Source: an uncultured Candidatus Nitrosopumilus sp.
GTDB taxonomy: Archaea; Thermoproteota; Nitrososphaeria; Nitrososphaerales; Nitrosopumilaceae
Assembly: GCA_951812655.1 (NCBI GenBank)
Contig: OX638319.1
Span: 1,589,620 to 1,653,619, forward strand
DNA length: 64,000 nucleotides
Reading direction: 5' to 3'
Program-made: the position numbers and the translations under genes
Part shown: one piece after another, positions 1,358-9,158 of the stretch
Layout of the letters: every line of letters starts with the position of its first letter
Numbering within the stretch: position 1 is the first letter of the stretch
The notes under the pieces: generated by a model
Database searches by the model: none
Seen by the model: the letters and a program-made list of their open reading frames with translations, nothing else
Told to the model about the DNA's origin: nothing

Positions 1358-1927
1358 TCATGGAACTATTACAAAATCAAATTCAGAATATACAATACCA
1401 TCGGATTCAGATGTTTCCAATATTAACGAGGACTTGGTGAGCCAGTCATGGTGCTCGTCACCTTCAAAATAAAGTTGTGTCGTGAGTGCAGGTCCTTCAA
1501 GTGATGAAACCTTCAAGTGTATATGTGCAGGTCTGAATTGACCACCCTCTGAATACTTTCCAGGAAATATGGTATCAATCACATACTTTCCATTGTCATC
1601 TGCGTGAACTTTGCCCCGCAAGACAAAGTCTTCAAAATGATATTTGCCCACAGAATCAGTTTGCCATACATCAATGATTGCACCAGGGATAGGATTGCAA
1701 TCAACGTCCAAGATATTTCCTGAAACAACTAGTCTTTGTCCTTCCAAAAATTCACCGATTTTTTCCTTTAGGGGGGAACCTTCAAGATAGTACGGCCCTT
1801 CAGCATTATTTTCAGTTAAAGTGCACGGGTTGTCAGAATCGGGCATTCCATCATATTGCCAAAGCACACTTCCCAAAACCAACACCACAGCTATCGGCAC
1901 TGCAGAAACAACAACTCTATTGAACAC
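1358..1927 (-). CDS. Membrane-anchored intradiol ring-cleavage dioxygenase-like protein
   Basis: An N-terminal hydrophobic helix (residues 5-23) is followed by a domain of the protocatechuate 3,4-dioxygenase family. The non-haem Fe(III) ligands of that family can be placed: Tyr96 (GKYHF), Tyr125 (FPGKY), and His135 and His137 in RPAHIH, with the conserved Arg just before. IIDVWQTD is also typical. Known enzymes open catechol rings. Here the protein is short (189 residues), single-domain and probably outside the membrane, and no aromatic-degradation genes lie nearby, so the substrate is unknown. Confidence 0.8.
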   Translation of the reverse strand: MFNRVVVSAVPIAVVLVLGSVLWQYDGMPDSDNPCTLTENNAEGPYYLEGSPLKEKIGEFLEGQRLVVSGNILDVDCNPIPGAIIDVWQTDSVGKYHFEDFVLRGKVHADDNGKYVIDTIFPGKYSEGGQFRPAHIHLKVSSLEGPALTTQLYFEGDEHHDWLTKSSLILETSESDGIVYSEFDFVIVP

Positions 1928-2004: not shown

Positions 2005-2667
2005 CTAATCGCGAGTAAGCGTGTGCGATTCTATTCTCTTCTCACTAGGTTTGTGCTTGCCGGTTACAATATAGTTAATCGCATCACTCATGAAAACCGC
2101 ATGGTCACCTATGCGTTCAAGATACCGTAAGAGCAAAGCTTCGGCCAGTGCACATTTCGTGCTATCAGATTCGATGAGCTTTGGCAGCCTTTCTTTGTAT
2201 ATTTTGTCAATATATGCCTCATCTTCCTGAATCTTTACGGCCTTGCGGACATCAAGTTCCGCAAATGAAAGAACTGCTTCCTTGATCATGTGCTTTACTT
2301 TTTTTGTTATTTCAAACAATGACTCGTTTGTACATTCAGAAATATCTCCAAACAGATCCCTTACCTGGGTAATGTCATAGGCATATCTCCCAAATCTTGA
2401 AAACGCATAAGATATTTCAGTAGAGGAGCGGATCATTCGAAAATCATCAGCCACAGGCTGATACTTCAACAGCATGTCAAAAATCAAATCCTCCACCTCG
2501 AAATACTTGTTACGAATGGAGTCAGACAATGCATGAACCTTGTCATTCGTGTCTTTTCCTTCCAGATACGAATCCACCGCAAGCGAGACGCAGTCTATGG
2601 CCATGTCCCCCATCTCAGTCATGATGAAAGACAGCTTTTGAAGCGACGGATCAATCAGTCTAGACAT
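2005..2667 (-). CDS. phoU: PhoU-family phosphate uptake regulator
   Basis: The 220-residue helical protein has two PhoU repeats, with the acidic metal-binding pattern seen in segments such as EMGDMAID and RYLERIGDHAVFMSD. PhoU proteins hold the Pst transporter in check when phosphate is plentiful. The gene is the last of a pstC-pstA-pstB-phoU operon. Its ATG overlaps the pstB stop by one base (TAATG), so translation is probably coupled. A second PhoU-type protein with an AbrB domain lies at 5525-6547. Confidence 0.9.
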   Translation of the reverse strand: MSRLIDPSLQKLSFIMTEMGDMAIDCVSLAVDSYLEGKDTNDKVHALSDSIRNKYFEVEDLIFDMLLKYQPVADDFRMIRSSTEISYAFSRFGRYAYDITQVRDLFGDISECTNESLFEITKKVKHMIKEAVLSFAELDVRKAVKIQEDEAYIDKIYKERLPKLIESDSTKCALAEALLLRYLERIGDHAVFMSDAINYIVTGKHKPSEKRIESHTLTRD

Positions 2668-3491
2668 TATCCGAATTGCCCCTGAACGTATTTTGCAGTA
2701 AGTTCATTTTTTGGATCAGTGAATAGCTTTTTCGTTTCCCTAAACTCAACCAGATCTCCAAGATACATGAAACCTGTGTAATCAGATACACGTACGGCCT
2801 GTTGCATGTTATGGGTAACTATGATTATAGTAAAATCTTTTTTGAGCTCTGTGATTGTTTCTTCAATTTTCTGAGTCGCTATAGGATCCAGTGCAGATGC
2901 GGGCTCGTCCATCAGAAGAACTTCAGGCTGTATGGCAAGTGCCCTGGCAATGCAGAGTCTCTGCTGCTGACCTCCGGACAACTCCACCGCAGGTTTTTTG
3001 AGATCACTTTTCACCTCATCCCAAAGGTAAGCCATTTTCAACGTGTCCTCCACTATTTCGTTTAGAATTTTCTTATCCCTTACCCCGTTCAGTCTCAACC
3101 CCGCTGTTACATTATCAAAAATTGACATAGTAGGAAAGGGATTAGGTTTTTGGAAAACCATTCCAACTTTTCGTCTATGGTAAATTGGATCAATCTCTTT
3201 TGAATATAGATCAATACCGTCAATCATCACTTTGCCCTCAACCTTTGCGCTCTTTGTCATATCATGCATTCTGTTCAGGCATCTTAGAAAAGTTGTCTTT
3301 CCGCATCCTGATGGTCCGATTAACGCGGTGACAGATTTTTCTTTGAATTTCATGGTGATGTCTTTGACTGCGGGATGGTCACCGTAAGAAATGGTGACGT
3401 TTTCGGCAATCATTTTGAAGTTGTCTTCAACATCAGAAATATCAGAATTTGATGAAACCGTGCTCTCCACAGAAGTATACTTTGGAGTCAT
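2667..3491 (-). CDS. pstB: Phosphate ABC transporter ATP-binding protein PstB
   Basis: The 274-residue ABC ATPase has a Walker A at residues 59-67 (GPSGCGKTT), the signature LSGGQQQR, and Walker [11 protein letters not shown] followed by the H-loop histidine in [17 protein letters not shown] and VFQKPNPFP are specific marks of PstB. It drives phosphate import through PstC and PstA. A 25-residue Ser-rich N-terminal extension precedes the ABC fold. The gene lies 5 bases after pstA and overlaps phoU by one base. Confidence 0.95.
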
Positions 3492-3496
3492 TGCAA

Positions 3497-4423
3497 TTAT
3501 GCCCCTCTACTAATTTTTGTCACGATTAATTTTGCATAGCGACGAGTCTCATTTTTATTTAAAACCAAAGTTCTCACTCCGATGTTAATTGCAAGGATTA
3601 TTAAAATTAAAACAAGTGCTGCCCCCCAACCCTGCATTTGAGCACTATCATAAGGCAGCATGGACAATCTCCAGATTCTCAATGGTAACGCATCCATAGG
3701 AGTGTCAAAGTTACTAAAGAACAGGCTACTTCCAAGAATAGTCATGATTAAAGGGGCGGTTTCACCTCCAATCCGTGCGACTGACAACAATACACCAGTG
3801 ATCATTCCATTTTTTGCCGCAGTCATTACGATCCGCGTTGTAACCACCCACTGTCTCAGACCCAAAGCAACTCCTGCCTCCCGATACGTCACAGGCACCA
3901 TTTTGAGAGATTCTTCTGTGGTTCGTGCAACAATTGGAAACATTATCAGGGCAAGTGCAAATGCACCTGCCCATACAGAGAAATGACCTAAAACCAAAAC
4001 AATGATCAAAAATGCAAAAATTCCTATCAGTATAGATGGAAATTCCATGAACACGTCATTGAAGAAACGTATGGATTTAGCAAATCTATTATCTCCAAAT
4101 TCGGACAAAAAAATCCCAGATAATACGCCTATAGGAACTCCAATGATGCTTGCCAAACCGACAATTATGAGAGTGCCTTGGATGGCAGGACCGATTCCTC
4201 CTTCACCAGTGCCAATGGCACCAGGCACTTCAGTAAGAAACTCCATACTGATTGCAGAAATGCCATTTCTAAATACTTCAACGAGAATGCTACCAAGCGG
4301 AATAATTGCAATCACCACACATGCTATCACAACCAAACGAACTATTTTATCAACCAGTAATCTTCTTTCAACATTTTGTTTGAAGAGTGTACGATACTCT
4401 TGACGTCTGCTTGCATCAGTCAA
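3497..4423 (-). CDS. pstA: Phosphate ABC transporter permease PstA
   Basis: This is a six-helix permease with the binding-protein-dependent transport motif in [20 protein letters not shown], which contacts PstB. A longer frame opens at an ATG at 4492, but it would overlap pstC by 73 bases and add a Cys/Asn/Lys-rich stretch not expected for PstA. A TTG at 4423 overlaps the pstC stop as TTGA and gives a 308-residue protein starting [10 protein letters not shown]. This TTG is the start I prefer. The C-terminus meets pstB after 5 bases. Confidence 0.9.
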
Positions 4424-5391
4424 TTGTTGATTGCCCCCTCTTTTACTTTGAGCATTCTTGTTACAAGAAGATGTGCTACAATGTTGATGCACATTGCAAT
4501 TGCTAACAGTATCAATCCGGTTCCAATTAATGCAGGAAGATGCAAGCCTGCAAGGGATGCCTCAGGAAATTCACTTGCAATGATACCAGAAATGGTTTGA
4601 CTTGGGTCAAACAACGAGTACGGAATTGCATTTGCACCGGTAGCACTTCCAATCAGCATGGTCACCGCCATAGTTTCTCCAACAGCTCGTCCAAGACCCA
4701 ATATTGAGGCACCAATCAATCCAGTCTTAGAATAGGGAAAGATTGCAAGCTTGAACATTTCCCACTTTGTTGCACCCAACATGTATGCAGCCTCTTTTTG
4801 TTGCTGAGGAACTGCCCGCATGACTTCACGTGCAACAGAAGAAACAGTGGGAATGATCATTATTGCAAGAACAACGCTAGCAGTGAAAATATCTAATCCA
4901 AACGGATTTCCTGAAAAAAGCCAAATACTGTCACCAAACGCCAAATGAAGCGGTTCTTCAACATAATCAATAAAATATTCACGGAAAACATACAAACCCC
5001 AGAGACCATAAATTACGCTCGGAACAGCAGCTAAAAGTTCAACTAAAAATCCCAATGGTGCGCCTATTTTTGGAGGAGCATCAGACACAAACATTGCAAT
5101 TCCAATACTAAGTGGAACACCGATTGCCATGGCAAGAGCAGCAGTTGTAAGCGTACCTAGGATGTATGGAAGTGCCCCAAAAGATTCCCTTCCTTCAACT
5201 GCATTCCAATCAGTTCCTATTACAAATGCAAGGCCCTCTTCTTCCCAAATCGGATACGACTCAGAAACTAATTGAAAGATCATCAATACAATCATTACTA
5301 AAACAAATGCCCCTGCAATTGTGGCACCCATCTTGAAAATTTGATCAGAATTGATTCTTTGTCGTGACTGAACGCCTATTTTTTCATCCAC
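4420..5391 (-). CDS. pstC: Phosphate ABC transporter permease PstC
   Basis: The 323-residue membrane protein has about six transmembrane helices and the permease motif REVMRAVPQQQKEAAYMLGA near residues 187-206. It forms the phosphate channel with PstA. It is the first gene of the pst operon and its ATG lies about 74 bases from a CTATATAG element in the intergenic space shared with the divergent AbrB-PhoU gene. Confidence 0.93.
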   Translation of the reverse strand: MDEKIGVQSRQRINSDQIFKMGATIAGAFVLVMIVLMIFQLVSESYPIWEEEGLAFVIGTDWNAVEGRESFGALPYILGTLTTAALAMAIGVPLSIGIAMFVSDAPPKIGAPLGFLVELLAAVPSVIYGLWGLYVFREYFIDYVEEPLHLAFGDSIWLFSGNPFGLDIFTASVVLAIMIIPTVSSVAREVMRAVPQQQKEAAYMLGATKWEMFKLAIFPYSKTGLIGASILGLGRAVGETMAVTMLIGSATGANAIPYSLFDPSQTISGIIASEFPEASLAGLHLPALIGTGLILLAIAMCINIVAHLLVTRMLKVKEGAINN

Positions 5392-5464
5392 ATTTTTACA
5401 ACAAAAATTATGGGTTATCTAAAAAGTGATCATATATTACATAAAATATGATTAGAATGTAGAA

Positions 5465-5472
5465 CTATATAG
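5465..5472. promoter_or_regulatory. CTATATAG palindrome in the pstC / AbrB-PhoU divergent promoter
   Basis: The 8-base palindrome CTATATAG, followed by AA, also occurs in the two promoter regions at 7889-7896 and 8651-8658. It may be a TATA element or an operator for phosphate control. The wider TATAGATTA block seen in the other two promoters is not conserved here; there is only a GATTA at a different spacing. Confidence 0.4.
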
Positions 5473-5524
5473 AATACAGTCAAAATCATCTTAACTACAC
5501 ATAGTCAAATAACTACACGTTATC

Positions 5525-6547
5525 ATGTCAGAGATCAAACAATTCAGACGTTTGCAGATGACAGGAGGATCTACATACATCATTTCGTTGCCAAAATCAT
5601 GGATAAAGGAAATGCAATTAAAGAAAAATTCCAATATCACACTGGTCAAAAATCACAATAGTTCTATAACAATATTTCAAGAAGAGCAAAGTAAAAAAAA
5701 CAGCGCATCCACACTAATTGGAAAAAATGAATCAAAGGAATCAATCAGAAGAAAGATCATCGCCATGTATCTTTCTGGATACAAAATAATTGAGATCAAA
5801 ACCAAAGGCATGGAAATACAGAGTTCCCACAGAAGCACGATAAGGGAACTGGTTAGAACATCACTCATGGGAACCGAGATAATTGAATCAAGCTCAGAAA
5901 AGATGGTGTTGCAGGTTCTTACACATCTTGCACAGCTTTCGTTTGATGTTGCATTGAAAAGAATGTTTTCCACTGCGACCAACATGCATGAAGAGGCAAT
6001 CGAGGCCATAGAGAAGGTAGACATCGTGCATGCAGAGGAAGTCATAAAAATGGATGACGAGGTGGACAGATTCAGCCTCTATCTCAGAAGAAACCTCACC
6101 CTGTCATTGGAAAATGTGCAAGTTTTACTAGATTCAGGTCTTGAAAAACCGTCCGATTGCCTAGGATACAGAACGGTAGTGAGATGTGTTGAAAGAATTG
6201 CAGATCATGCAGGACTAATGGCAAAAAAAGTGAAATATCTGAATAATCCAATCGACAAAAAGATCATGAAGGAGATTGAAAAAATCAGCAAGGAATCACT
6301 CATAGTCTTTGGAAACTCAATAACTGCACTTTCAAAGAAGGATTACAAAATGGGAGAGACAGTTGCAGCAAGCATCACAGAAATAATCGACAAAGAGAAA
6401 AAGCTCATGGATTCTCTCAAGCCAAACGAGGATACTGCGATAATCAAATTGATTCTAGAAGACATACGAAGAACTGCGGAATATTCCAGAGACATTTCAG
6501 AGATCGTAATAGATGAGACGGTACAAAGCACCATAGAAGAATTTTAA
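5525..6547 (+). CDS. AbrB/SpoVT-type DNA-binding protein fused to PhoU domains
   Basis: The 340-residue protein starts with an AbrB-like swapped-hairpin domain (residues about 5-50; RRLQMTGGSTYIISLPKSW is characteristic) and continues with two PhoU-type helical repeats. This architecture is common in archaea and is thought to link phosphate status to transcription. It is transcribed away from pstC and towards pstS, so it lies inside the phosphate locus and is the best candidate for its transcriptional regulator. That role is inferred from architecture and location. Confidence 0.88.
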   Translation: MSEIKQFRRLQMTGGSTYIISLPKSWIKEMQLKKNSNITLVKNHNSSITIFQEEQSKKNSASTLIGKNESKESIRRKIIAMYLSGYKIIEIKTKGMEIQSSHRSTIRELVRTSLMGTEIIESSSEKMVLQVLTHLAQLSFDVALKRMFSTATNMHEEAIEAIEKVDIVHAEEVIKMDDEVDRFSLYLRRNLTLSLENVQVLLDSGLEKPSDCLGYRTVVRCVERIADHAGLMAKKVKYLNNPIDKKIMKEIEKISKESLIVFGNSITALSKKDYKMGETVAASITEIIDKEKKLMDSLKPNEDTAIIKLILEDIRRTAEYSRDISEIVIDETVQSTIEEF

Positions 6548-6570
6548 AAAAAGAAAAGGTTTAGAAAAAA

Positions 6571-7824
6571 CTAGACTTTTAGAATGCCTTTCTGAATTAG
6601 GTATTGTAATCCATTGATATAGTCCTGATCAGTTATCAGTCCTTCAGACCACCACTTTGCATTATCTCTAATCCATTTTGGAATTTCCAAATCCATGCTT
6701 GCGTCAGATTCATAATTCCAAATCTGCTCACCATCATAGGTGATTTTTGCCAATCCTTGTTTACCGAGTTCTATCACGCTGTCAGCAAGTGGAACGTAAA
6801 GCAAGCTTGATGAAAATTCTTGGCCATCAGTAATCATCCAATAAATCAGATGAATAGCTGCCTTTGCTTGTTCTTTGTTGTCTGTCACGGACTTCAGATC
6901 ATCATACAATAGCAAGTATGTGAAACTTGCAATAGGATATGAATCTGGACCAGGAGCATTTACAAGTGATACACCTACCCAACTTTCTTCAGCTGACGGG
7001 AGGGTATCTGCAACACCACTAGATGCAGCAGAAATGGTTTCCAAAGTTGGTTCTACAAATGCAGAGTTGTCACCATTCTGAACTGATGCAAATGCCATTC
7101 CGGTCTGGAACGCATATGCCAGTTCAACATAGCCAATAGAATATTCAGTTGACTTCACAATTGCCGCAACACCTTCATTTCCAGCAGCTGCCAGGCCCAT
7201 GGGCCATGGAACAGATTTTCCCTTACCTATTTTTTCATCCCAAGTGGGACTAACTTCGGTAAGATAGTCTGTAAATATGAAAGTGGTTCCAGATCCGTCA
7301 GATCTATGTGCTGTTACAATTTCCTTGTCAGGAAGATCCAGTCCAGGATTCTCAGAAGCAATTGCAGGATCATTCCATCGAGTTATTTCTCCAAGATAGA
7401 TTCCAGCAACAGCATCAGATGTTAAATTCAAACCCTTGTTTGGAACCTCAGGTAGATTATACACAATAACTACCCCGCCAATTGATTCAGGAATATGAAG
7501 TGTTCCGGGAGCTAATTCCCTTTCTGCCTCACTCATAGGCTTATCAGATGCGGCAAAGTTCACGGTCTTTTCAATATGTTGTTTTATTCCTCCGCCACTT
7601 CCAATTGATTGATAGTTCAAATTCACATTATCAAATGCGTCGTTATACTGAACTCTCCACAAATCAATTAGTGGGAACGGAAATGTTGCCCCTGCTCCTG
7701 TCAATGTAAACTCTTGATTTGGATCAGGTATGTCAGGTGATGCAGATGCATATGCAGAAAAAGGCACCATAGTAATGGCCCCAATTGCAGTAAGCACCAT
7801 CAGTAACGATGTCTTAGTTGTCAT
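6571..7824 (-). CDS. pstS: Phosphate-binding protein PstS
   Basis: The 417-residue protein has a signal peptide (residues 1-26) and the PstS phosphate-binding fold: TLTGAGATFPFPL, NYQSIGSGGGIKQ and VTAHRSDGSGTTFIFTDYL carry the phosphate contacts. It captures phosphate outside the cell and hands it to PstC/PstA. The last 37 residues (381-417, IPKWIRDNAKWWSEG and onwards) form a short C-terminal module that I know from many secreted thaumarchaeal proteins; it is not part of bacterial PstS. The gene is convergent with the AbrB-PhoU gene. Confidence 0.95.
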   Translation of the reverse strand: MTTKTSLLMVLTAIGAITMVPFSAYASASPDIPDPNQEFTLTGAGATFPFPLIDLWRVQYNDAFDNVNLNYQSIGSGGGIKQHIEKTVNFAASDKPMSEAERELAPGTLHIPESIGGVVIVYNLPEVPNKGLNLTSDAVAGIYLGEITRWNDPAIASENPGLDLPDKEIVTAHRSDGSGTTFIFTDYLTEVSPTWDEKIGKGKSVPWPMGLAAAGNEGVAAIVKSTEYSIGYVELAYAFQTGMAFASVQNGDNSAFVEPTLETISAASSGVADTLPSAEESWVGVSLVNAPGPDSYPIASFTYLLLYDDLKSVTDNKEQAKAAIHLIYWMITDGQEFSSSLLYVPLADSVIELGKQGLAKITYDGEQIWNYESDASMDLEIPKWIRDNAKWWSEGLITDQDYINGLQYLIQKGILKV

Positions 7825-7864
7825 TAGATGAGTTAGTCTGAAAAATCTATTTACAGATAAGCGT

Positions 7865-7896
7865 TATAGATTATGGAACTTACATACACTATATAG
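7865..7896 (-). promoter_or_regulatory. Bipartite promoter element upstream of pstS
   Basis: On the plus strand, TATAGATTA (7865-7873) and CTATATAG (7889-7896) start 24 bases apart. Exactly the same pair and spacing occurs at 8627-8658 ahead of the next secreted-protein gene. CTATATAG begins 65 bases before the pstS ATG. The element may combine a TATA box with a phosphate-responsive operator; this is inference from conservation and gene context. Confidence 0.5.
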
Positions 7897-7956
7897 ACAA
7901 CAATTTTTCAAGTTCCAAGAACTCAACAATACAAAAAAATAAAAAAATTCTAAATA

Positions 7957-8586
7957 CTACTGGTATGCTTCGTTCCAGGTTTGAGTATTTCTCAAATCCA
8001 GACTATTCTCAGTGTCAGCTTTGTCAACATTGCTATTCATCTGATCAAAAAGAGGATTGCCTGGCAGGTATCCGTTGCATTCAAATTCAAACACATCAGT
8101 TGTGGTGAATCCCTTGCTCGTAGTCCATCCTTCTTCCTTGTCAGATTGAGTGGTGACAACGTAATCGGATATACTGCAATCAGAATATTCGAATTGTCGG
8201 AATGTAACACCGTCCTTTTGGAGGTAAACATCCACATCAAACTTGCCATAGTCATGATTAACGTTACTCAATCCTCTCACAAATGTCATATCTGCTGCCT
8301 CATACAGGTATACCCTGTCATAATTGACAGCACCTTCAAGTGTGAAGACGGCAGATTCGTTTGCGCGATCAAATCCAGAAATTTGATCGTATAGCTGAAA
8401 GCTACTAGATTCCTCTACGGCATCACGAAAACTAAAGACTGTATGTATTTCAACGTCGTTGCCTCGGACATATTGTTTCTCATCAGTCTCCTCAGCGGAG
8501 ATCTGTTGCTGGGTGATGCCAAACATGGCTACCAGTGAAACAGTAAGTAACGATGCAAGAAGAAAGCTTTTCGTTTTTGTAGTCAT
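7957..8586 (-). CDS. Secreted protein, probably phosphate-regulated
   Basis: I do not recognise the family. With a start at ATG 8586 (MTTKTKSFLLASLLTVSLVAMFGI) the protein is 209 residues and has a typical signal peptide. A longer frame begins at 8604, but the 8586 start puts the CTATATAG promoter element exactly 65 bases upstream, as in pstS. The N-terminus also resembles that of PstS (MTTKTSLLMVL). The mature part is hydrophilic with two Cys-containing segments (YSDCSIS and FECNGYL) that may form a disulphide. Shared promoter and location suggest a role under phosphate limitation. Confidence 0.75.
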   Translation of the reverse strand: MTTKTKSFLLASLLTVSLVAMFGITQQQISAEETDEKQYVRGNDVEIHTVFSFRDAVEESSSFQLYDQISGFDRANESAVFTLEGAVNYDRVYLYEAADMTFVRGLSNVNHDYGKFDVDVYLQKDGVTFRQFEYSDCSISDYVVTTQSDKEEGWTTSKGFTTTDVFEFECNGYLPGNPLFDQMNSNVDKADTENSLDLRNTQTWNEAYQ

Positions 8587-8626
8587 TGTTGAAATTAAAA
8601 TCAAAATTTTATTTACACATATACGG

Positions 8627-8658
8627 TATAGATTACGTAATTATTATACACTATATAG
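8627..8658 (-). promoter_or_regulatory. Bipartite promoter element upstream of the secreted protein
   Basis: TATAGATTA (8627-8635) and CTATATAG (8651-8658) have the same order and 24-base offset as in the pstS promoter, and the distance to the chosen ATG (65 bases) is identical. The flanking bases TTTACA and AATAA are also shared between the two promoters. Confidence 0.5.
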
Positions 8659-9020
8659 AAAATAATTTATTTTTTCAGAGTCATTAAATTAGATTATAAT
8701 TATAGATTTTTAACAGTCAGGGTGCATTGTACAAGAAAAATTGAAATAAATTAGTCATAAATTTCTATATAGATTTTATAATAAATATAATTTCAATACA
8801 CAACACCTAAGTTATAAGAAAGAATAATTAGATCATAAAATTCTATGATTTTGATTTCATCGAATGTTATGATGACGATGATTATGACTTTGGTGATGAA
8901 ACAGATGAAGATGAATAAAATCAAGTAGAATGCACTTGAAACAGAATACAAAAAACAGAAATCGTAAGTTTGTACACGTTCAATATTCTATAAGACACAC
9001 ATCTATGAATTATAAAATTC
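8659..9020. other. AT-rich intergenic stretch
   Basis: No gene with a usable start is seen. A short acidic frame (about 8840-8918, ending DETDEDE) has no ATG, GTG or TTG. An imperfect 6-6-6 inverted repeat (ATCATA, spacer, TATGAT) lies near 8831-8848. Confidence 0.4.
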
Positions 9021-9158
9021 GTTGATTTCAAATCAGCATGATGTTGAGATGCATAGCATACGCTATGTTGATTTCAAATCAGCATGATGTTGAGATGCAT
9101 AGCATACGCTATGTTGATTTCAAATCAGCATGATGTTGAGATGCATAGCATACGCTAG
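9021..9158. repeat. Three tandem copies of a 46-bp unit behind the 23S rRNA gene
   Basis: Copies span 9021-9066, 9067-9112 and 9113-9158 and are identical except for the final base of the last copy. Each unit contains the near-palindrome TGATTTCAAATCA and the inverted repeat ATAGC-ATAC-GCTAT. The array starts about 60 bases beyond the 23S processing stem on the transcribed side, so the repeated hairpins would lie in the rRNA 3' trailer. They could act in termination or trailer processing, or simply be slippage products. Confidence 0.85.

Follow-up and report, generated by a model that had tools for sequence, protein, structure and literature searches.

A conserved two-part promoter site at the phosphate-transport genes of Nitrosopumilus-type archaea, with AbrB-PhoU proteins as candidate readers

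The window analysed here is a stretch of 64,000 nt from contig OX638319.1 (positions 1,589,620 to 1,653,619) of an uncultured Candidatus Nitrosopumilus sp., and our subject is a promoter site in its phosphate-transport (pst) locus. On the reverse strand lie pstS (6571..7824; TIGR00975, E 1.1e-101), pstC (4420..5391, with a GTG start; TIGR02138, E 3.5e-84), pstA (3497..4492 as the open reading frame (ORF) is listed, though the true start may be further in), pstB (2667..3491, called from its ORF), and phoU (2005..2667; TIGR02135 at E 9e-27, which falls short of the curated cut-off). Relatives of pstA follow pstC in genomes G046, G011, and G004, and a relative of pstB follows pstA in G046. Between pstC and pstS, the forward-strand gene 5525..6547 encodes an AbrB-PhoU protein, the pst-linked paralogue, with an N-terminal AbrB/MazE-type domain (MazE_antitoxin, PF04014; E 5.1e-7, 30 bits against a cut-off of 24.7) and a C-terminal PhoU domain (PF01895; E 2.4e-15). 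Beyond pstS, again on the reverse strand, a gene at 7957..8586 encodes a protein of 209 amino acids (aa) with a signal-like N-terminus, judged by eye, and one domain at about residues 42-182 with a predicted Hcp/tail-tube fold; we call it the secreted protein.

In the orientation of the genes, pstS and the secreted-protein gene are both preceded by CTATATAG, a 15-base gap, TAATCTAT, and then TGTAAATA. At pstS, CTATATAG occupies 7889..7896 (reverse strand; -72..-65 relative to the ATG, whose A is at 7824), the second element TATAGATTA/TAATCTATA lies at 7865..7873 (reverse strand; TAATCTAT at -49..-42), and TGTAAATA at 7848..7855 (reverse strand; -31..-24). The corresponding reverse-strand elements of the secreted-protein gene are CTATATAG at 8651..8658 (-72..-65, with the A of the ATG at 8586), TATAGATTA/TAATCTATA at 8627..8635, and TGTAAATA at 8610..8617 (-31..-24). 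The TATA box of an archaeal leaderless transcript is expected about where TGTAAATA sits, and we read TGTAAATA as the putative TATA box of both genes. An earlier note on this DNA had pointed out the likeness of the two promoters, and its measurements are exact: each promoter has the 24-base offset between TATAGATTA and CTATATAG, and each has a CTATATAG that begins 65 bases from the ATG. The same note placed CTATATAG in the pstC promoter, where we find it on the reverse strand at 5465..5472 (-81..-74 of pstC, and -60..-53 of the AbrB-PhoU gene on the other side), but left the partner element there unmentioned. The complete site is CTATATAG-N25-TAATATAT (5432-5472), about one helical turn longer than the N15 version, with TAATATAT, which has one mismatch, at 5432..5439 (reverse strand; -48..-41) and a probable TATA box, TTAGATAA, at 5415..5422 (reverse strand; -31..-24). 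The second element thereby stands at nearly the same position in all three promoters.

CTATATAG is a perfect 8-bp palindrome that occurs four times in the window (0.28 expected) and 11 times in the whole genome (21 for the reversed word). One hundred shuffles of the window gave no pair of TATAGATTA and CTATATAG like those of pstS and the secreted-protein gene, and the genome search that the note had proposed, run over 1.67 Mb with gaps of N13-17, returned exactly two matches, both TATAGATTA-N15-CTATATAG and at these same two genes, with none for the reversed control. Thus the two-part site occurs in the source genome only before pstS and the secreted-protein gene (exact) and before pstC (one mismatch). 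A relaxed search allowing up to three mismatches gave 21 matches at N15 (control 21) and 12 at N25 (control 27), and a genome-wide list of further regulon members was dropped. Besides the three known promoters, only the matches at 1176030 and 1480854 had two mismatches; the former sits inside an ORF, and no ORF of at least 80 aa starts within 260 bases of the latter in the direction of the match. A scan for sigma-70 promoters and terminators gave counts no higher than the shuffle level. Outside the elements, 32 of 56 bases of the pstS and secreted-protein promoters are alike (shuffle mean 17.7), and their identical spacing in this genome may come partly from common descent. The wider evidence for the elements comes from relatives.

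We searched CTATATAG-N{10,34}-TAATCTAT in a drawn sample of 151 genomes of the family (22 genera), many of them close relatives, so that the counts are not independent events. This gave 65 exact sites in 48 genomes, compared to 13 for the reversed control. Their spacing is far from even: 42 are at N25 and 14 at N15 (together 56 of 65), leaving nine at other distances. The two favored gaps are 10 bases (about a turn of the helix) apart, which fits proteins that need one face of the DNA. Fifty of the sites precede pstS, four a gene of the secreted family, three pstC (e.g. G143, with CTATATAG-N25-TAATCTAT), and two an AbrB-PhoU gene; nine had no scripted gene call, and the three pstC assignments among them were made by reading. 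The remaining six comprise a probable pstS cut off by a contig end (G121), a histidine phosphatase family gene (PF00300) with the site directly upstream (L110, from G105), and four sites with no gene call, one of which falls within an apparent NUDIX reading frame, judged by eye (L114). Beyond the family, genomes of the class yielded 13 sites at scattered spacings, compared to 25 for the control.

CTATATAG alone is still more widespread. Among pst-region genes, after exclusion of those with an upstream stretch shorter than 100 bases and of weak matches to pstC, AbrB-PhoU, and the secreted protein, it stands upstream of 80/98 pstS, 45/55 pstC, and 47/54 AbrB-PhoU genes, most of the last sharing an intergenic region with pstC and so not independent of it. 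The 63 control palindromes of matched composition average 0.6-0.8 in the same regions, with maxima of 7-11. A TAAATA-like word follows TAATCTAT by 12 bases at 48 of 55 pstS promoter sites, in ten genera. The note had named random occurrence in unrelated promoters as what would speak against its proposal, and that is not the pattern in these family counts and their controls. The finding is larger than first stated: a conserved two-part site, probably a phosphate operator, for which AbrB-PhoU proteins are the best candidate readers, and a pst-linked secreted protein with a predicted tail-tube fold.

The note had also predicted that the secreted protein belongs to the phosphate response, and comparative genomics supports this. 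Relatives occur in 74 of the 151 family genomes; in a set of 300 genomes from the class, 92 have them, and 91 of those 92 belong to the family. Genes for pst components are their recurrent neighbors: in many genera the gene adjoins pstS or diverges from it, often encoding three tandem domains (∼540 aa). Among pst-linked relatives, CTATATAG is upstream of 35 of 37 (40 rows, 38 with the site, minus three doubled by truncated loci). Up to nine of the 35 come from genus g17, where several diverge from pstS and possibly use its site. Of rows with no pst gene in the covered sequence within 8 kb, including some whose pst position is not established, 7/17 have it; the G135 row, with a short upstream region, falls in neither class. 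Two of the seven are distant copies in G143 and the others come one each from G134, G041, G012, G087, and G053. In the last four, some of them drafts, the best pstS match has an E of only 1e-11 to 1e-13, a value typical of the common C-terminal stretch of PstS described below, and these genomes seem to keep the site before the secreted-protein gene without pstS. A metagenome-assembled Nitrosopumilus genome, whose protein is 66% identical, has the full three-part promoter before this gene, with no pst gene within the 6.6 kb covered, and in many relatives the spacing before the gene is another, CTATATAG-N24-TGTTCTAT. The far-apart copies in G143 (G143:C1:5310-5921 and 1392873-1393484) have equal scores and identical promoter elements, which suggests a recent duplication.

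As to the reader of the site, the note offered CTATATAG as a candidate site for the AbrB-PhoU regulator of the pst locus. Two further genes of the source genome carry both AbrB/MazE-type and PhoU Pfam domains. One of them, the second AbrB-PhoU gene (C1:360184-361206; product 36% identical to the pst-linked one), has one of the 11 genomic CTATATAG copies directly upstream; this paralogue came to attention when a separate relaxed search, among relatives, gave sites beside it. Its relatives have an exact CTATATAG upstream in 39 of 39 cases from eight genera, including genomes without full-length pstS; these promoters were hand-picked for spread, and three (G003, G113, and G133) were already known to have the site, while the second-paralogue matches in G142 and G038 lie outside the 39. 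Control palindromes (again 63) average 0.2 here, with a maximum of 5. Two copies of CTATATAG stand 21 bases apart in all nine g9 genomes and the single g21 genome of this set, and 41 apart in two of its three g19 genomes. In an alignment of four AbrB-PhoU proteins (three pst-linked, one second), the AbrB region has invariant R8, Q11, G14, S16, Y18, SLPK, and WI. Since the second paralogue always carries CTATATAG on its own core promoter, which looks like autoregulation, and since the AbrB halves share key residues, CTATATAG is most likely an operator of AbrB-PhoU proteins, with some freedom over which paralogue reads the pst genes.

That freedom is needed because genomes in which the pst-linked paralogue was not found keep the site. 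This goes against the proposal in its simplest form: that paralogue alone does not explain CTATATAG and is not the only reader it may have. The two elements behave separately. Among 77 genomes with pstS, counting the pst-linked regulator as present by a bit-score cut of our choosing and allowing gaps of 12-30 for both elements, 47 of 58 genomes with the regulator have both elements and 11 have only CTATATAG; where it was not found, 6/19 have both, 7/19 only CTATATAG, and 6/19 neither, these 19 including drafts (G146, G136, G106, and G021) and G023, whose divergent pst-adjacent copy is below the cut. TAATCTAT is thus more often degenerate where the pst-linked paralogue was not found, though not strictly so; this element may be the other half of the operator, or a different factor may bind there.

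Putting these observations together, we consider it likely that the phosphate regulon of this Nitrosopumilus-type family has an operator, CTATATAG, to which AbrB-PhoU proteins bind, activating the pst and secreted-protein genes when phosphate is scarce. In the promoters of pstS, the secreted-protein gene, and pstC, a gap of 15 or 25 bases separates CTATATAG from TAATCTAT, and TAATCTAT keeps a nearly constant distance from the TATA box of an apparently leaderless promoter; a regulator bound at CTATATAG, on a fixed face of the helix and with the core promoter left intact, would activate transcription under phosphate scarcity. Activation, rather than repression, is suggested by the position of CTATATAG upstream of the core promoter and by this face-of-helix arrangement. 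At the second AbrB-PhoU gene the regulator would instead cover the TATA box, giving autorepression. Bacterial PhoU proteins report on Pst activity, so phosphate would be the signal, sensed through the PhoU half of the regulator together with the Pst transporter. The secreted protein would then be exported together with PstS under phosphate limitation.

The alternative that survives best, although we think it rather unlikely, is that some other transcription factor binds CTATATAG and that the AbrB-PhoU genes are mere members of its regulon. In its favor, pst genes keep CTATATAG in genomes that yielded no pst-linked AbrB-PhoU, and co-occurrence with AbrB-PhoU genes cannot separate a reader from a target. 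Yet the unbroken presence of the site at the second paralogue, even in genomes lacking full-length pstS, fits autoregulation, and the AbrB region of that paralogue resembles that of the pst-linked one. Less probable again is that CTATATAG is no operator at all but a special TATA box, a core element perhaps for a particular TBP or TFB. In 38 of the 39 second-paralogue promoters it does sit in the TATA position, between about -19 and -31 relative to the likely start (placed by reading; the G023 copy, which adjoins pstS, has it at -73), and there it could be a core-promoter element. However, the pst and secreted-protein genes have it farther out, near -72 or -81, and have a conserved TATA-like word of their own between it and the gene; the genome has just 11 copies, and TATA boxes are not known to prefer an N15/N25 spacing to another element such as TAATCTAT. 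That the likeness of the two promoters in the window is a recent duplication of the pstS promoter and start codon with no regulatory meaning, as the similar flanks and the MTTKT with which both proteins begin might suggest, is very improbable and for the elements already contradicted by their retention at pstS in ten genera and by the CTATATAG-N24-TGTTCTAT spacing of many relatives, although for the flanks in the source clade it may hold.

Several findings weigh against an AbrB-PhoU operator for phosphate genes, beyond the TATA position of CTATATAG just described. Among pstS genes, 18 of 98 lack CTATATAG (in genera g2 and g5, and 13 genes of g9). A good second element is absent from 11 of the 58 genomes that have the pst-linked regulator and present in 6 of the 19 in which the regulator was not found. 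In G046, a single contig with an intact pst operon, the pst locus has no AbrB-PhoU gene and CTATATAG is nevertheless kept before the secreted-protein gene, pstS, and pstC. For the secreted protein, neither the single-domain paralogue in the source genome (69% identical) nor the three-domain one has CTATATAG in the 140 bases read, and when all matches, inner repeats included, are counted, the site is upstream in only 38 of 70; its fold, moreover, gives nothing certain on function. As paralogues lack the site, the overall count is only 38/70, and members are also present in genomes without pstS, the secreted family as a whole is not bound to phosphate, although its pst-linked members appear to be.

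The nearest known comparison is the bacterial Pho regulon, in which PhoR-PhoB acts through a Pho box ahead of pstS; the likeness is a short site upstream of pst and other phosphate-linked core promoters. Here too a common site stands upstream of pst genes and is conserved across species. The site sequence is another, however, and the promoters of these ammonia-oxidizing archaea (AOA) are of the archaeal TATA type. The bacterial system uses a histidine kinase and a response regulator, whereas the AOA candidate would be a one-component AbrB-PhoU protein, with both domains present in the window gene and in the two other source-genome genes; no search for PhoB or PhoR was made. In the literature, PMC7490402 describes pst as regulated by phoU and treats phosphorus as one of the forces of selection acting on marine AOA. 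Within the open-access literature, to which most subscription papers and all bioRxiv preprints do not belong, we found no match for CTATATAG together with archaea and, among the papers listed, no report of the CTATATAG site or of AbrB-PhoU control in AOA, no described operator for archaeal AbrB-PhoU proteins, and no account of AOA phosphate-uptake regulation beyond pst under phoU. Being legible in genome sequence, such an operator would allow direct listing of phosphate-responsive genes in uncultured AOA. It also supplies archaeal AbrB-PhoU regulators with a candidate binding site and links an unannotated protein family both to phosphate stress and to a striking fold.

That family is unannotated in the sense that neither Pfam nor NCBIfam matches the secreted protein (none of the 70 family members at E 0.01) and that solved structures gave no useful sequence match; a PHROGs search gave three weak matches to single-member, unnamed families. 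The alignment of 70 sequences has two invariant cysteines. In the AlphaFold2 model, residues 41-180 mostly have a predicted local distance difference test score (pLDDT) of ≥89, with one weak block near 151-160. The best matches of the model are tail-tube proteins, namely the PVC and AFP tubes, Hcp, and phage tubes, and a viral library gave likewise; Foldseek reported an E of 2.2e-5 with moderate TM-scores (∼0.30-0.58), and VIA a Z of 13.1 with a root-mean-square deviation (rmsd) of 3.0 over 124 residues. The predicted fold is thus that of Hcp of the type VI secretion system and of the tail tubes of phages and contractile injection systems. The secreted protein differs from these in its signal-like N-terminus, its two invariant cysteines, its phosphate-transport neighbors, and its lack of a sequence match to Pfam, NCBIfam, or solved structures.

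A three-domain relative from G059, predicted separately (mean pLDDT 73.9, predicted TM-score 0.73), matches the Hcp/tail-tube fold in domains 1 and 3, and its first two domains, taken as a unit, align with the phage baseplate chains 8eon_E and 9b45_d (Z 10.0, 188-190 residues, rmsd ∼4), which we take to be two-domain hub proteins forming pseudo-sixfold rings. The baseplate match and the three-domain relatives are no more than suggestive of hexameric ring or tube assembly, in which three domains per chain would amount to half a ring. The secreted protein is probably a ring-forming part of the cell surface. More speculatively, and we hold this to be doubtful, AOA short of phosphate may export with PstS, under the AbrB-PhoU operator, a tail-tube/Hcp-fold protein that forms rings or tubes on the surface (hexamers of the single-domain form, two-chain pseudo-hexamers of the three-domain form), a tube building block of viral or secretion-system type thereby being used in nutrient scavenging.

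Some further features of the locus and its relatives deserve mention. The last ∼40 residues of PstS (∼375-417; window 6574-6702) match stretches in many family-genome ORFs of varied length, and this common C-terminal stretch is perhaps a cell-surface tag. Several genomes of genus g9 (L219-L235) have tandem pstS pairs, a number of the second copies showing an internal TAA. In G046, an 86-aa ORF takes the place of the AbrB-PhoU gene (L216 6233-6493). Beyond phoU, on the pst strand, window 1358-1927 encodes a protein whose start is signal-like to the eye and which contains an intradiol dioxygenase domain (PF00775). The fourth CTATATAG of the window (8765..8772, forward strand), which the note does not mention, lies 70 bases upstream of a candidate acidic microprotein of 27 codons (8835..8918, forward strand, with a tentative ATA start). 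A similar 27-residue ORF with an ATG start in G074 likewise begins 70 bases after CTATATAG, and in G105 a 28-residue acidic ORF begins 80 bases after a copy; the likeness among these ORFs is one of low complexity only, and the 27-codon ORF is possibly a tiny regulon member. Just ahead of an apparent ribosomal RNA region, at 9021-9157, a 46-base unit is present in three identical head-to-tail copies.

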